Positions 5,889-10,631 of a stretch of DNA of 64,000 bases are shown here, piece after piece. The notes beneath the pieces are model-generated. The model worked only from the letters and a program-made list of their open reading frames with translations, was not told where the DNA came from and did no database searches. The DNA comes from Actinopolymorpha pittospori (GTDB lineage: Bacteria > Actinomycetota > Actinomycetes > Propionibacteriales > Actinopolymorphaceae). The DNA lies in contig NZ_JADBEM010000001.1 in NCBI RefSeq assembly GCF_014873875.1, positions 7,874,001 to 7,938,000 on the forward strand, read 5' to 3'. Numbering within the stretch: the first letter of the stretch is position 1; each line of letters starts with the position of its first letter. The position numbers were made by a program, and so were the translations under genes.

Positions 5889-5995
5889 TTAGCCTCGGCG
5901 ATGGCCCGGACGCGTGTTCGCGCGTGGTCCGGTGCCGACGCGACACAGACAAGCACCACCACAGTCAGCGAAGACTCGACAGACAACAGCAGACG

Positions 5996-6092
5996 ACAGG
6001 GGAGCGCGCGAGCGCTGAGAGTGCGGGGCTGCCACACGTTGGCACAGCCCGCAGACCCTCGAACCTGATCTGGGTAATTCCAGCGCAGGAAG
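5996..6092 (+). promoter_or_regulatory. TPP riboswitch (THI element)
   Basis: The conserved thiamin-pyrophosphate aptamer sequence is easy to read: ACAGGGGAGC at the 5' side, GCTGAGAG at 6014-6021, an extended P3 hairpin (arms around 6024-6034 and 6039-6051), then GACCCTCGAACCTGATCTGG followed by GTAATTCCAGCGCAGGAA. It binds TPP and represses the downstream genes. It sits 136 nt upstream of ykoE, consistent with control of thiamin/HMP uptake. No real gene lies between 5845 and 6227; short open frames across this RNA are spurious. Confidence 0.95.
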
Positions 6093-6120
6093 TCGGTCTG
6101 ACCGTCACGTCACCGTGCGG

Positions 6121-6156
6121 CGCACCTGTACCGATCCGACATCGGGCACAGGTGCG
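6121..6156 (+). promoter_or_regulatory. Expression-platform hairpin of the TPP riboswitch
   Basis: A 9-bp perfect stem, CGCACCTGT (6121-6129) with ACAGGTGCG (6148-6156), encloses a second helix CCGAT/ATCGG (6131-6135 with 6141-6145). It lies between the aptamer and the ykoE ribosome-binding site. It could be a terminator or an anti-sequestering structure; which one is not decided by the sequence. Confidence 0.55.
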
Positions 6157-6227
6157 TCGTCATGGTCGGCCTGCCGGCACATGACGCTCGGCCCTCGGCT
6201 GCCCTCGTCCCGCAGGGAGGCCATCCG

Positions 6228-6845
6228 ATGACCCAGGACGTCACCTCGTCCGCCAGGAAGGGCGGCAAGAGCTCGGCCCGCTGGCGTACGGTCGACATCG
6301 TCGTGGCGGCCGTGGTGGCCGTGGCGTTCGGCGTCGTCTTCGCCGCATGGGGCGCGCTCTGGAACTTCACCCTGCCCGCCTTCGCGGCGTTCCCACCCGC
6401 GCAGGCCTTCATGTACGGCATGTGGCTGGTCCCCGGCGTGGTCGGCGGCCTGCTCATCCGTAAGCCGGGTGCCGCCACCTTCGTCGAGATCGTGGCCGCG
6501 ACCGTCTCGGTGTTCCTCGGTATCCCGAACCCCGTCGCGATCATCTTCTACGGCCTGGTGCAGGGCCTCGGCGCGGAGGTGATCTTCGCGGCCTACCGGT
6601 ACCGCTCCTGGCGGCTGCCGGTGGCACTGCTCGCCGGCGCCGTCGCCGGGCTGGTGCCCGCCGTTCTGGACAACATCCTCTACAACGCCGCGTGGGCGCC
6701 GGCCTGGATGGTCTCCTACGGCGTCCTCGTCGTGATCAGCTCGATCGTGATGGCCGGGGCCGGCGGATACGCGTTGATCCGCGCCCTCGCCCAGACCGGG
6801 GTGCTGGCGCCGTTCGCCTCCGGTCGCGAGCAGTCCCGCACGTGA
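6228..6845 (+). CDS. ykoE: Thiamin/HMP ECF-type transporter membrane component YkoE
   Basis: Substrate-specific (S-like) membrane subunit of the YkoEDC importer for the thiamin precursor hydroxymethylpyrimidine or thiamin. The 205-aa protein has about five to six hydrophobic helices from residue 24 on, with the family-like stretches WNFTLPAFAAFPPAQAFMYG and NPVAIIFYGLVQGLGAEVIF. I chose ATG 6228 because CAGGGAGG lies about 8 nt upstream; an in-frame ATG at 6162 lies inside the leader. The TPP riboswitch just upstream supports the assignment. Its stop overlaps the ykoD start (GTGA). Confidence 0.93.
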   Translation: MTQDVTSSARKGGKSSARWRTVDIVVAAVVAVAFGVVFAAWGALWNFTLPAFAAFPPAQAFMYGMWLVPGVVGGLLIRKPGAATFVEIVAATVSVFLGIPNPVAIIFYGLVQGLGAEVIFAAYRYRSWRLPVALLAGAVAGLVPAVLDNILYNAAWAPAWMVSYGVLVVISSIVMAGAGGYALIRALAQTGVLAPFASGREQSRT

Positions 6846-8347
6846 GCGGCTCGGCACTGTCGATCCGCGCCCGCGGCTTCGGGTTCCGGTATGCCGGACG
6901 CCTGGCGTGGGCGGTGCGCGGCCTCGACCTCGCGATCGAACCCGGCGAACGGGTGCTGCTCGCCGGCCCGTCCGGTGGGGGCAAGAGCACCTTGCTCACC
7001 GGCCTGGCCGGACTGCTCGACACCGACCAGGCCGGTGAGTCCGAAGGGGCGCTGGAGGTGGGCGGCCTGCCCCCGGTAGAGGTCCGGGACCGGATCGGCA
7101 TGGCGTTCCAGGATCCCGAGACCCAGCTGGTGATGGCGCGGGCAGGTGACGACGTGGCGTTCGGCCTGGAGAACCGTGCCGTACCCACCGAAGCGATCTG
7201 GTCGCGGGTCGACGAAGCGCTGGCGCTCGCGGGTTTCCCGTACGACCGGGAGCATCCGACCGGTCGGCTCTCCGGCGGAGAGAAGCAGCGCCTGGTCCTG
7301 GCCGGCGTGGTCGCCCTGCGGCCCGACCTGCTGCTCCTCGACGAACCGACCGCGAACCTCGACCCCGAGGGCGCGGCTCTCGTTCGCGGGGCTGTCGGCC
7401 AGGTCGTCGAGGCCACCGGCGCCACCCTCGTGGTGGTCGACCACCGGGTGGAGGACTGGCTGCCCCAGGTCGACCGGGTCGTGGTCGTCGGCGCCGGCGG
7501 CGGCGGCGTCCTCGCCGACGGAACCCCGGAGAAGGTGTTCACGACCGAGCAGGACGCCCTGGCCGCGGCCGGTGTGTGGATACCGGGAGGCGAGCTGCCG
7601 AACCGTTCACGACCCGCGACCACCCGCTCCGAGCCTTGGCTCACCGCCGAGACCCTGGCCTACCGCTATCCCGGCACCGACCGGCCGGCCCTCGCCGACG
7701 CCTCGCTCGTCCTGCGGGAAGGCGAGGCGGTCGCGATCACCGGCACGAACGGTTCCGGCAAGTCGACCCTCGCGATGCTCCTCGCCGGCCTGCTCGCGCC
7801 GTCCTCGGGCCAGGTCAGCGTGGCCGACGGCGCGGACCCCGATGTCACGGACCTCCCGCGCCGACGCCGCCGACGCAGGACCGCCGCCCGGCCGCTGCAC
7901 CGCTGGCGGGCGAACGAGCTCGTCCGGGCCGTCGGCACCGTCTTCCAGGACCCCGAGCACCAGTTCCTCACCTCGAGCGTCCGCGCCGAACTCGCGCTCG
8001 GTCCCCGTCTCGCCGGTCTGTCCGCCGAGCAGACGAAACGCCGGGTCGAGGAGCTCCTGCAGCGACTCGCCCTGGAGAAGCTGGCCGAAGCGAACCCGTT
8101 CACCCTGTCCGGCGGAGAGAAACGCCGCCTGTCGGTGGCCACCGCCCTCGCGACCGGGCCGCGCGTACTCGTGCTCGACGAACCGACCTTCGGGCAGGAC
8201 CGGCGCACCTGGCAGGAGCTGCTGGACCTGCTCGCCGAGCTCCGCTCGGCCGGGCACGCCCTGTGCTACGTGAGCCACGACCGGGAGTTCATCTCCGCGC
8301 TGGCCGACCGGGAGCTTCCCGTCCGCTCGGGACGGCTGGCCGCATGA
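6842..8347 (+). CDS. ykoD: Thiamin/HMP transporter tandem ATPase YkoD
   Basis: Energy-coupling ATPase with two ABC domains in one chain (501 aa). The first domain has Walker A GPSGGGKST, signature LSGGEKQRL and Walker B LLLLDEPT. The second has GTNGSGKST, LSGGEKRRL and VLVLDEPT. A basic insert (RRRRRRRTAARPLHRWR) sits in the second domain. It powers uptake together with YkoE and YkoC at the inner face of the membrane. The GTG start overlaps the ykoE stop. The gene now ends at ATGAG, exactly where the IS110 element begins. The reconstructed ancestral arrangement is an ATGA overlap between ykoD and ykoC. Confidence 0.94.
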   Translation: MSGSALSIRARGFGFRYAGRLAWAVRGLDLAIEPGERVLLAGPSGGGKSTLLTGLAGLLDTDQAGESEGALEVGGLPPVEVRDRIGMAFQDPETQLVMARAGDDVAFGLENRAVPTEAIWSRVDEALALAGFPYDREHPTGRLSGGEKQRLVLAGVVALRPDLLLLDEPTANLDPEGAALVRGAVGQVVEATGATLVVVDHRVEDWLPQVDRVVVVGAGGGGVLADGTPEKVFTTEQDALAAAGVWIPGGELPNRSRPATTRSEPWLTAETLAYRYPGTDRPALADASLVLREGEAVAITGTNGSGKSTLAMLLAGLLAPSSGQVSVADGADPDVTDLPRRRRRRRTAARPLHRWRANELVRAVGTVFQDPEHQFLTSSVRAELALGPRLAGLSAEQTKRRVEELLQRLALEKLAEANPFTLSGGEKRRLSVATALATGPRVLVLDEPTFGQDRRTWQELLDLLAELRSAGHALCYVSHDREFISALADRELPVRSGRLAA

Positions 8348-8364
8348 GTTTCCTGAGTCAACCC

Positions 8365-9618
8365 CTATGTCGCGAGAGGCTTATCCGCGGGCGTGTTGAT
8401 CTTCCTGTTGGCCTGGTGGGTGGCGGGGTCGTAGCAGGTGCCGTCGCGCCAGCAGGCCCACATCACCCGCAGCCAGGTGCGGGCCAGGATGCGGATCGCG
8501 TGGGGGTGTCGCTTCTTGCGGGCTCTGGCGTCGTTGTAGATCTTCGCTGCCCAGGTACTGCCGTGGCGGCTGTTGTCGGCGAAGGTGGTCAGCGCGACGC
8601 GGGCTCGGCGGTTCGTCGCGAAGCGGAAGGCGACCGTGCGGGACTTGCCCGAGGCGCGGGTGAGGGGGACGACACCGGCCTCGGCGATGAGCTGTTCGCA
8701 GGTCTGAGCGCGTTCCAGGATCGGGCCGATCTCCCCGATGACCTGCCCGAGGCTGACCTTGCCGATGCGCGGCATGGTGGCGAACAGCGGCGCGTAGGGG
8801 TGGGCTTTGGTGGCCTCGGCGATGGTCTTGTCCAGTGTGCGGATGGTTCCGCGGATGCCCTGCACGAGCTGGACCTGAACGCGGACCAGCTGCCCGGTTA
8901 TCGCCTCGCTGAGACGCGAGGCCGCCTTCGGCGTGGCGCGCAGACGTTCGATCAGGACGCTTCCGGGCTTCTTGCCGGAGTAGCCGCGGCGCTTGCACCA
9001 GGCTTCCAGGCGCCCCGCGGTGAGCGTGGCGGCCGAGGCCGGGGTGGGGTACCGCTCCAGGAAGGCCATGGCGATGTCGCTGTCCAGGCTGGCGAAGACC
9101 GTCTTGCCGCCGGGCCAATGCTCGTCCAGCAGCGCGGCGAGCTGGTTGACGGCGGCGACCTTGGCCTCGACGTGGTCGGCCCGCTGACGCGCGAGGGCCT
9201 GCAGGTCGAGGGTGGCCTGCTCGGTGGGCTCCAGCCTCGGCAGCAGGTGGCCGTCGGTGCGCAGGTAATCGGCGAGCTTCATGCTGTCGCCGGCATCTGT
9301 CTTGGCCTTCGAAGCGCCCCAGCGCGCCCGCATCGCGTGGAAGGCGTTCGGGTGGACCGGCACGACCGGGTGCCCGGCGGCCAGCAGCCGGTCGACGGCC
9401 AGGCCCCGGGTGGTCTCAATGGCCACGGGCAGGCCGGCCGGGTTGCCGTGCTTGCGCAGTCGGGCCAGGGTCTTGGCGAACCCTTCCTCGGTGTGGGCCA
9501 GTTCCCACCGGTCGATGCGCTTGCCGGTGTCGTCCATGACGGTCACGTCATGGGTTTCGCTCGCCCAATCCCATCCGATGAACACGTGCGTCGTACTCCA
9601 AGGCGGTTCGAGGAGCAC
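8365..9618 (-). CDS. IS110-family transposase (DEDD recombinase)
   Basis: A 417-aa recombinase. The N-terminal RuvC-like DEDD domain shows D17 (FIGWDWASETHD), E68 (VAIETTRGLA), D108 and D111 (KAKTDAGDS). A helical middle part (about 130-270) leads to the C-terminal Tnp (PF02371-type) domain with MPRIGKVSLGQVIGEIG and the candidate catalytic serine S323 in LTRASGKSRTV. IS110 enzymes cut and rejoin DNA through this serine and are guided by a bridge RNA from the element's own non-coding end. The start is a GTG at 9618. The length is normal and no frameshift or lost catalytic residue is seen, so it may be active. Confidence 0.95.
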   Translation of the reverse strand: MLLEPPWSTTHVFIGWDWASETHDVTVMDDTGKRIDRWELAHTEEGFAKTLARLRKHGNPAGLPVAIETTRGLAVDRLLAAGHPVVPVHPNAFHAMRARWGASKAKTDAGDSMKLADYLRTDGHLLPRLEPTEQATLDLQALARQRADHVEAKVAAVNQLAALLDEHWPGGKTVFASLDSDIAMAFLERYPTPASAATLTAGRLEAWCKRRGYSGKKPGSVLIERLRATPKAASRLSEAITGQLVRVQVQLVQGIRGTIRTLDKTIAEATKAHPYAPLFATMPRIGKVSLGQVIGEIGPILERAQTCEQLIAEAGVVPLTRASGKSRTVAFRFATNRRARVALTTFADNSRHGSTWAAKIYNDARARKKRHPHAIRILARTWLRVMWACWRDGTCYDPATHQANRKINTPADKPLAT

Positions 9619-9824
9619 CTGCCCGGTGGTGAGGTCGTCTGCCGGGAGCTCATTAATCGGCCCTCTGCGGGGCGTGTCCCTGAAGCCGATCAGACGACCT
9701 CGGCCCGGCGGGGCTGGCGGAACTCATGCTGGCCGTCGAACAGCTCGCATTACTGGCCATGCACCCACCGGGACCGAGAGGTCACAACCCTACCCGTGAG
9801 GGCTGCAGAAGGGATGGTCCTCTA
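9619..9824 (-). ncRNA. Predicted bridge RNA of the IS110 element
   Basis: The non-coding left end can fold into two stem / internal-loop / hairpin units, as in known IS110 bridge RNAs. Putative target-binding loop: stem 9704-9712 with 9764-9772 (9 bp, one G-U), holding RNA GCAUGAG (9729-9723), complementary to CTCATGC of the reconstructed target, and GGGUGC (9766-9761) opposite the left target GGATGC. Putative donor-binding loop: perfect 11-bp stem 9631-9641 with 9691-9701, apical hairpin 9660-9663/9670-9673, holding RNA UAAUGAG (9655-9649), complementary to the element end CTCATTA, and UUCAGGGA (9684-9677), resembling the other end TCAGGAAA. Exact RNA ends are unknown. Confidence 0.75.
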
Positions 9825-10631
9825 ATGAGCATCCTCGCCGAGCCCATCGTCGGGAATCCCCACGCTCCGGTCGCCCGACTGAACCCGGTGACGAAGCTCG
9901 TCGCGGCGTTCGCGGTGATGATCGGGCTGCTTCTCACCGGGGACGCGGTGACCCCCGCCCTGGTCCTTGCGATCGAACTCGTCGCGATCTCGATGGCCGG
10001 CCTGCGGTGGGGCGTGTTCCTCCGCCGCATCTGGTTGCTGTTCCTCACCACCGCGGGGATCGGCCTGTCGACGCTGCTCTTCACCGACCGCGACACCGGC
10101 ACCCTGTGGCTTTCCGCCGGACCGGTCCACGTCACGACCGGCAGCCTGCTGGCCGCGACCGCGATCGTGCTGCGCGTACTCGCGATCAGCCTTCCCGGTG
10201 TCGTGGCGTTCGCCTCGACCGACCCGACGGAGTTCGCGGACGCACTGGTGGAGCACCTCCACGCTCCCCCACGCTTCACGTTCGGCGCGCTCGCGGCGTT
10301 CCGGCTCCTCCCGGTGCTCGGTGACGAGTGGCGGACGTTGCTGCTCGCCCGCCGGGCGCGTGGCATCGACGCCGGCCGCTCGCCGCTACGACGGGTGCGG
10401 CTGTTCGCCTCCGGGGTGTTCGCCCTCCTGGTCGGTGCCATCCGGCGCGGCGTACGGCTGGCGACGGCGATGGAGTCGCGCGGCTTCACCGACCGTCCCG
10501 ACCGGACCCTCGCCCGACCGCGGCCGCTGAGGCGTTCGGACTGGCTCTTCCTCGTCGGGACGTGTGCCGCGGTCGTCGGCGCCACCCTGGCGAGCCTCGC
10601 GCTCGGTACCTGGCGCTTCCTGTTCTGGTGA
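9825..10631 (+). CDS. ykoC: Thiamin/HMP ECF-type transporter transmembrane component YkoC
   Basis: EcfT-type coupling protein (268 aa) linking YkoE to the YkoD ATPase. It has about five membrane helices (including KLVAAFAVMIGLLLTG and a cluster at about 100-130) and the EcfT coupling-helix motif LLLARRARGID (about 171-181), with a second such element near VRLATAMESRGFTDRP. The ATG at 9825 lies in the ATGAG copy at the IS junction. Before the insertion this start would have overlapped the ykoD stop; now AGAAGGGA (9807-9814), contributed by the IS end, sits 10 nt upstream and can serve as ribosome-binding site. An upstream in-frame ATG at 9726 lies wholly inside the IS. Confidence 0.92.
   Translation: MSILAEPIVGNPHAPVARLNPVTKLVAAFAVMIGLLLTGDAVTPALVLAIELVAISMAGLRWGVFLRRIWLLFLTTAGIGLSTLLFTDRDTGTLWLSAGPVHVTTGSLLAATAIVLRVLAISLPGVVAFASTDPTEFADALVEHLHAPPRFTFGALAAFRLLPVLGDEWRTLLLARRARGIDAGRSPLRRVRLFASGVFALLVGAIRRGVRLATAMESRGFTDRPDRTLARPRPLRRSDWLFLVGTCAAVVGATLASLALGTWRFLFW

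Follow-up and report, generated by a model that had tools for sequence, protein, structure and literature searches.

A complete IS110-group insertion sequence with a predicted bridge RNA, found mostly at stop/start overlaps of neighbouring genes

How does an insertion sequence come to lie exactly at the junction of two operon genes, and can the choice of this site be read from the element itself? The question is raised by a locus in the window, the 64,000-nucleotide stretch of the Actinopolymorpha pittospori genome analysed here. It is highly probable that the locus holds a complete IS110-group insertion sequence, and that a bridge RNA encoded in its left end guides the pairing of donor and target, mostly at stop/start overlaps.

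The element and its empty site

The element was delimited from core to core over 1481 bp (8349..9829, minus strand), outside of which the four copies in the same genome diverge. Since the AG/CT core stands at both ends, the boundaries 8347-9827 are equally valid. The left non-coding end (LE; 9619..9829, minus strand, 211 bp) encodes the predicted bridge RNA, and the right non-coding end (RE; 8347..8364, minus strand, 18 bp) ends with TCAGGAAA followed by the CT core. A long LE with a predicted RNA and a short RE place the element in the IS110 group rather than in IS1111.

The gene of the element (8365..9618, minus strand) codes for a DEDD recombinase (transposase) of 417 aa. Both Pfam domains of the IS110 family were detected (PF01548, DEDD RuvC-like, 2.7e-31; PF02371, 3.5e-9), the DEDD residues D17, E68, D108 and D111 are in place, and so is the serine followed by a glycine (S323-G324). 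D17, D108 and S323-G324 were invariant in 10/10 alignment rows, E68 and D111 in 9/10. A single-sequence PDB search with the recombinase gave no match, whereas a profile search did match ISCro4 (9t56, 1.3e-16) and IS621 (8wt6, E 4.2e-18), the recombinase of which is distantly similar and differs in length (326 aa).

The element is located at the second gene junction of an ECF-type operon, composed of a PF09819 membrane protein, an ABC ATPase and a CbiQ permease. The upstream ATPase gene (6842..8347, plus strand, start coordinate provisional; Pfam ABC_tran, 2.5e-53) has kept its stop codon, and the downstream gene for the CbiQ-type permease (9825..10631, plus strand; PF02361, 4.2e-28) now takes its start codon from the element. 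A TPP riboswitch (59.3 bits) precedes the operon (riboswitch and operon together 5988-10631), which presumably encodes a YkoEDC-like transporter for thiamine precursors.

On the host side, the right target GCATGAG (8342..8348, plus strand) contains the start codon (8344-8346), the stop TGA (8345-8347) and the core AG (8347-8348). At the left junction (9825..9834, plus strand), the ATG supplied by the element (9825-9827) is followed by the core AG (9828-9829), and the left target begins at 9830. When the flanks of the window copy are joined, the ATPase gene ends in GCA-TGA and the permease start ATG-AGC runs over this end, with GCATGAGC as the overlap. The empty site reconstructed in the initial annotation is credible, since joining restores this stop/start overlap of two ABC-transporter genes. 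The permease is present in 8/8 family genomes, the present one (G000) included, and the junction could be read in 4/7 orthologous loci of the family: the GTGA overlap is uninterrupted in 3/7 (499 codons before, 268 after), and in 1/7 the gene opens with GCATGAGCAT. The sequences named in the annotation were likewise found at their positions.

Four full copies were found in the genome, at four different sites, together with three short partial matches to the element. Over 1481 bp, the other three copies depart from that of the window by 5, 5 and 7 differences. After the element end, the right flank is CTCATGCG in 4/4 copies, and the final two host bases before the core in the left flank are T or C, then G. 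Joined in gene orientation, the flanks give CGCATGAGC in all four. The genome measures 10.6 Mb, compared with 6.4-8 Mb in its genus mates.

Relatives were collected from several samples. The scan of GTDB contigs yielded 34 loci and the viral scan one, and of the 13 records of the plasmid search the best seven and three distant ones (L068-L070) were taken. A single-genus sample of 392 genomes contributed 11 places in 7 genomes; the genus is inferred to be Streptomyces, since named Streptomyces loci share identical sites. In total, 40 elements with both ends were available, and L054 is one more. Among the genus mates (6 genomes, at 1e-60), no close relative was found, with a partial match of 53% in G003 and one of 38% in G000. 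The family sample (8 genomes, 1e-150) held no close relative outside G000, and the order sample (391 genomes, 1e-130) none in the other 390; one relative of 55% with stops was added by the class sample (394 genomes), at most four candidates per genome being scored in the order and class samples. The informative relatives were supplied by the GTDB contigs, the plasmids, a single viral contig and the Streptomyces sample, and include full copies of 73-89% identity in Streptomyces, Nocardiopsis and Kutzneria. Given these full copies and the lack of a match at 1e-130 in the other 390 order genomes, the element probably reached the present genome by horizontal transfer. L030 and L049 show one and the same element at an identical site in a contig filed as viral in IMG/VR and in the chromosome of S. 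olivoreticuli; the contig is therefore probably part of a prophage, or host DNA that was filed wrongly.

Predicted bridge RNA and its guides

For the 207 nt of the non-coding end, a folding energy of -97.6 kcal/mol was obtained (z -3.0), and 1/200 shuffles was as good. In an alignment of 26 distinct left ends (A2), its architecture is a 5' hairpin followed by two loops, first the target loop and then the donor loop. RNAalifold predicted 55 pairs on A2, five of them with double changes; 43 were kept and 12 dropped (five near the element end, four before the target loop and the three that it puts between the two donor guides). The 43 pairs are formed in 99.6% of 1118 cells, compared with only 35-53% in slid control versions of the structure. 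Cells with double changes numbered 16 vs 4.1 in shuffles (0/500 as high), and the number of pair types was not above shuffles (497/500 at least as high). The two stem-loop units described in the initial annotation are thus backed by a fold that beats shuffles and by compensatory changes in both; covariation of the two stems, on which that reading had been made to depend, was found.

The 5' stem-loop (9784..9806, minus strand, A2 columns 24-46) has 8 bp, paired in 98.6% of the cells with no double changes. The target-binding stem-loop (9705..9771, minus strand, columns 59-125) is built of an outer stem, an internal loop and a hairpin, with the left target guide (LTG) on the 5' side of the internal loop and the right target guide (RTG) on the 3' side. 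Double changes occur here at columns 71/115 (U-A to C-G in 7 sequences) and 89/95 (G-C to A-U in 4). In the donor-binding stem-loop (9631..9701, minus strand), the 13 pairs of helix 4 are formed in 100% of the cells and three of them show double changes. The single-sequence fold pairs parts of the target guides with one another. A search of Rfam at gathering score returned only the TPP riboswitch and no family matching the predicted bridge RNA.

Two further observations concern this end. Three related segments of the target loop, AUGGCC, AGCUGU and ACGGCC (9731-9760, columns 70-99), vary together in several relatives. The middle segment is able to pair with the one on either side of it, which makes two hairpins around the guides possible. 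TTGACT in the RE and GACCAT in the LE (8356-8361 and 9814-9819, minus strand) would stand 17 bases apart in a circle and are a possible candidate junction promoter for the RNA.

The RTG GCAUGAG (9723..9729, minus strand) is complementary to CTCATGC and fits the right target in all four own-genome copies. Other copies at unrelated sites, which would have spoken against the initial annotation, were thus not what was found. Within 41 elements, own copies included, 37 pair 7/7, one has a G-T wobble and three have mismatches (L065 and L063 one each, L053 two); outside of these, L047 has one mismatch and L054 pairs 7/7. Guides of relatives and their sites read GUAUGAG/CTCATAC, CUGUGAG/CTCACAG, CGAUGAG/CTCATCG, CAAUGAG/CTCATTG and AAGUGAG/CTCACTT (the last in L054), as well as ACAUGAG/CTCATGT in all four copies detected in genome G960. 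Over 36 sites, the three variable positions gave 103/108 Watson-Crick pairs vs 55.7 expected and a maximum of 85 in 20000 permutations, where five duplicates were dropped, L054 stands outside the count as the first search pattern overlooked its right end, and neither permutations nor pair counts are tree-aware, many sequences being close relatives.

Covariation was scanned between the variable RNA columns 47-200 on one side and left-target positions -10 to -1 and 14 right-target bases on the other. The top three signals, all in the RTG, link columns 102, 101 and 103 to right-target +4, +5 and +3; the next link columns 80 and 81 to left-target -3 and -2. These five (z 7.7 to 4.9) lie on two antiparallel diagonals, and off-diagonal signals reach z 4.8, just behind the fifth true signal, as shared descent would give. 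In the first loop, the 5' side pairs with the bottom strand of the target and the 3' side with the top strand, as in the IS621 type.

The left target guide had to be moved. The initial annotation had placed it at GGGUGC (9766-9761), a near-constant segment (columns 64-69), five of six bases of which belong to pairs of the target loop's outer stem. Its 98/185 pairs over 37 sites are exactly the permuted value, the segment being invariant there. The covariation of columns 80/81 with left-target -3/-2 instead places the LTG, UAAUGC, at columns 78-83 (9747..9752, minus strand), with its last C matching the core C. Columns 78-82 form 126/195 Watson-Crick pairs over 39 sites vs 92.5 permuted (0/20000 as high). 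In raw pairing beside the core, both segments are similar overall, and at the site of the window copy GGGUGC pairs as many or more bases than 9752-9747, which pairs AUG plus the core C and no more. The choice of 9752-9747 therefore rests on covariation and on the stem. Left matches are poor in L053 and L063, and L062 and L002 also depart on the left; since L053 and L063 mismatch on both sides, their guides may have changed after insertion.

In the donor loop, the left donor guide (LDG) UUCAGGGA (9677..9684, minus strand) matches the element right end TCAGGAAA with one G-T wobble, and the match is exact in relatives (UCAGGGA/TCAGGGA in the L028 group; UUAGGAA/TTAGGAA in L034, L039 and L042). 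The right donor guide (RDG) UAAUGAG (9649..9655, minus strand) is complementary to CTCATTA, the element left end. This combination is present in 43/49 elements and is replaced by UAGUGAG/CTCACTA in L034 and L039; wobbles occur in L014, L016 and L043, and L015 has one mismatch plus one wobble. Both donor guides, as annotated, thus fit the element ends, and their changes track those of the ends. Independent donor changes are few, which makes the support for the donor loop weaker than for the target loop. CTCA follows the right end in 48/48 right-end-like strings, searched without demanding CTCA; L037 has no right end.

The CT core lies in both right-guide pairings, the LTG reaches the core C alone and the LDG stops short of the core. 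PMC11208158 describes for IS621 a handshake rule, according to which guides match non-cognate DNA. Here, the predicted handshake base of the target loop, U at 9722 (minus strand, column 108), matches the donor A left of the core, and that of the donor loop, C at 9648 (minus strand), matches the G at left-target -1, which is G in 39/39 sites. Both are invariant (26/26), so they show consistency with the published rule and nothing beyond it.

By analogy with IS621, from which expression and binding of the RNA and the chemistry are inferred, the following course is proposed. In a circular form, the two ends would lie next to each other, and the RNA would then be expressed. In the donor loop, LDG would pair with TCAGGAAA and RDG would pair with CTCATTA, both at the junction of the element itself. 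In the target loop, LTG would pair with the host bases left of the CT core and RTG would pair with CTCATGC, which begins at the core and extends to the right. Strand exchange at the CT core, between the donor TCAGGAAACTCATTA and the target GCATGAGCAT, would be the work of the DEDD/serine recombinase. The covariation of RTG and site, the own-genome copies and the covariation of the structure support the proposal of the initial annotation that the element inserted itself by its guides.

Outcome of insertion and occupied sites

After insertion, the upstream gene retains its TGA, and the element gives the downstream gene an ATG (GTG in L034 and L039). Where a GTGAG target received an element with CTCAT, the downstream gene has ATG and the upstream side retains GTG. 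The exchange therefore took place to the left of that base, consistent with a CT core. The element can in this way enter an operon with both neighbouring reading frames intact.

A hypothetical antisense ORF runs through the whole element (8344..9825, plus strand), from the host start codon to a TAA which overlaps the new ATG (TAATG). The junction stop overlaps the new start as TAGTG in L034 and L039, and as ATGA, with TGA one codon later, in L016. The recombinase frame of L034 is interrupted by a stop close to the end, while the antisense frame is still open up to the junction. An accidental frame without any role, open since high-GC genes rarely use TTA, CTA and TCA, is a rather probable explanation. 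The antisense register is codon-on-codon, host gene-like frames leave a 452-codon stretch open with a chance of 0.31, and a Pfam scan of the frame found no domain; openness being so cheap at high GC, the frame was judged weak as evidence of selection. Against an accident, the frame is open to the junction stop in 33/35 evaluable elements (five of 40, at contig ends, were left out; duplicates are included, and the elements are related and hence not independent trials), and this also across the non-coding LE. The two failures, L042 and L062, have lengths that break the frame, and the other length differences are multiples of three (1481, 1484, 1460 and a deletion of 201 bp in L063).

A more daring reading, which we consider unlikely though worth stating, is that the guide RNA is written to read a stop/start overlap (ATGA or GTGA plus G), and that the element acts as a translated spacer through which operon coupling is kept. 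The host ribosome would enter at the retained start codon, read the antisense frame through the recombinase gene and the bridge RNA, stop at TAATG and restart on the ATG supplied by the element. If this is true, insertion leaves the operon translationally coupled.

The occupied sites were sorted with a frame classifier based on codon usage. From the 40 elements, 30 distinct sites remained after five at contig ends and five duplicates were dropped: a stop/start overlap at 17, only a stop at 4, only a start at 2, an intragenic position at 2 and other positions at 5, where the classifier can overlook small genes. At L032, called stop only, the downstream frame is KdpF (Pfam PF09604), and L040, called other, also has a 29-codon frame. 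Gene starts thus account for 19/30 sites (overlaps and start only together). A Shine-Dalgarno-like tetramer precedes 24/43 right targets vs 25/142 motif sites. In annotated plasmid loci of close relatives, a gene on the opposite strand starts at the element left end in 6/6 cases, an annotation which may itself rely on the ATG of the element.

Overlaps were far rarer in the comparison sets: 9/128 for background motif sites in the same DNA (Fisher p 5.9e-9 vs 17/30 occupied) and 3/49 for unoccupied guide-matched sites (p 8.7e-7). Guide-matched sites had to fit the right guide over its whole length and, on the left, the first three bases (own genome, 2/19 overlaps) or the first two (G960, 1/30, for the first 30 of 58 sites). 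Most guide-matched sites are empty, and in the own genome 19 sites fit the 10-base guide pattern yet are unoccupied. The expectation of the initial annotation that target specificity can be predicted from the window thus holds in part: the guides fit the sites, but do not tell which of the matching sites are taken. As occupied sites are far more often junctions than unoccupied guide-matched ones, guides are insufficient to explain the distribution, and another signal or the loss of harmful insertions must add to them.

Loss could do so by itself, if the element landed wherever its guides fit and intragenic insertions disappeared, an explanation to which we give somewhat less than an even chance. 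Intragenic positions make up 32/49 of the unoccupied guide-matched sites vs 2/30 of the occupied ones, and overlaps are among the least harmful places for the motif. When intragenic sites are excluded, however, overlaps still represent 17/28 of the occupied sites, compared with 9/52 motif sites (p 1.3e-4) and 3/17 guide-matched sites (p 0.006). Also speaking against survival alone, all nine RTG types in A2 read NN[A/G]UGAG, with a purine before UGAG and thus a start codon overlapping TGA. Occupied sites are furthermore nominally richer in G at -8/-9 and in A/T at -7 than 43 background overlaps. The bias towards stop/start overlaps is plain; its cause may be targeting or survival.

In 43 right targets, a W-C-C block was observed at +10 to +12 (W in 31, C in 35 and C in 37), beyond the guide and at a fixed distance like the TCTCCTT of IS900; background overlaps have a weaker version. 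A search by eye for an RNA segment able to read this block found none. Since background overlaps share much of the signal through the Shine-Dalgarno sequence, an extended guide is not claimed. IS110 recombinases contact DNA, and the recombinase protein might read the site motif, the resemblance of the RNA being a by-product of shared descent, for which the CTCA after all right ends, the W-C-C block enriched without an RNA partner and permutations that ignore kinship could speak; this is very improbable, since joint changes of guide and site bases were seen at five positions, which belong to two separate segments of the RNA, concern opposite strands and follow the expected antiparallel order, and a protein reader does not predict this.

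Known systems and meaning of the guide series

The preferred reading, an IS110-group element with a guiding bridge RNA, brings the element closest to IS621. According to PMC11208160 and PMC11208158, they have in common the IS110 group, a bridge RNA in the LE with the order 5' stem-loop, target loop and donor loop (the IS621 RNA being described as a 5' stem-loop and two stem-loops with internal loops; PMC11208160), the CT core, four guides, the DEDD and serine residues and handshake-compatible bases. They differ in their sites, mostly stop/start junctions here and REP sequences in IS621, and in that target and donor here share CTCA[T/C], beyond CT. With the seekRNA of IS1111/IS110 elements, the likeness is a non-coding end giving an RNA with one segment per target strand (PMC11187229); in contrast, IS1111 members carry their RNA in the right end (PMC11208160).

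For IS900 of Mycobacterium avium subsp. paratuberculosis, PMC8141618 reports targeting of translation initiation with the motif CATGNNNNNNTCTCCTT, which we interpret as a start codon with the complement of a Shine-Dalgarno sequence at a fixed distance, and an antisense frame, hed, that spans the element (with reference to Doran et al., 1997). Both elements belong to the IS110 family, insert at translation start signals and are spanned by an antisense frame, the likeness being one of description. They differ in that a guide RNA covarying with the site was identified here, that a stop/start overlap of four bases is the most frequent kind of site, and that the antisense frame ends on a stop overlapping the new start codon. 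A word search of PMC11187229 and PMC11208160 returned no guides for stop/start overlaps, the sole start-codon passage found in the former being about annotation, and no report of bridge-RNA guides reading such overlaps was found in the IS110, bridge-recombinase and IS900 literature, as covered mostly outside of subscription papers and bioRxiv. IS900 is a precedent for an element aimed at translation starts.

The related recombinases form a natural reprogramming series, with at least seven right guides, each of which fits its site perfectly. High-GC genomes can therefore be read directly for candidate bridge systems that differ in their targets. The series also suggests how an RNA-guided mobile element occupies low-cost sites, namely the stop/start overlaps which hold operons together.
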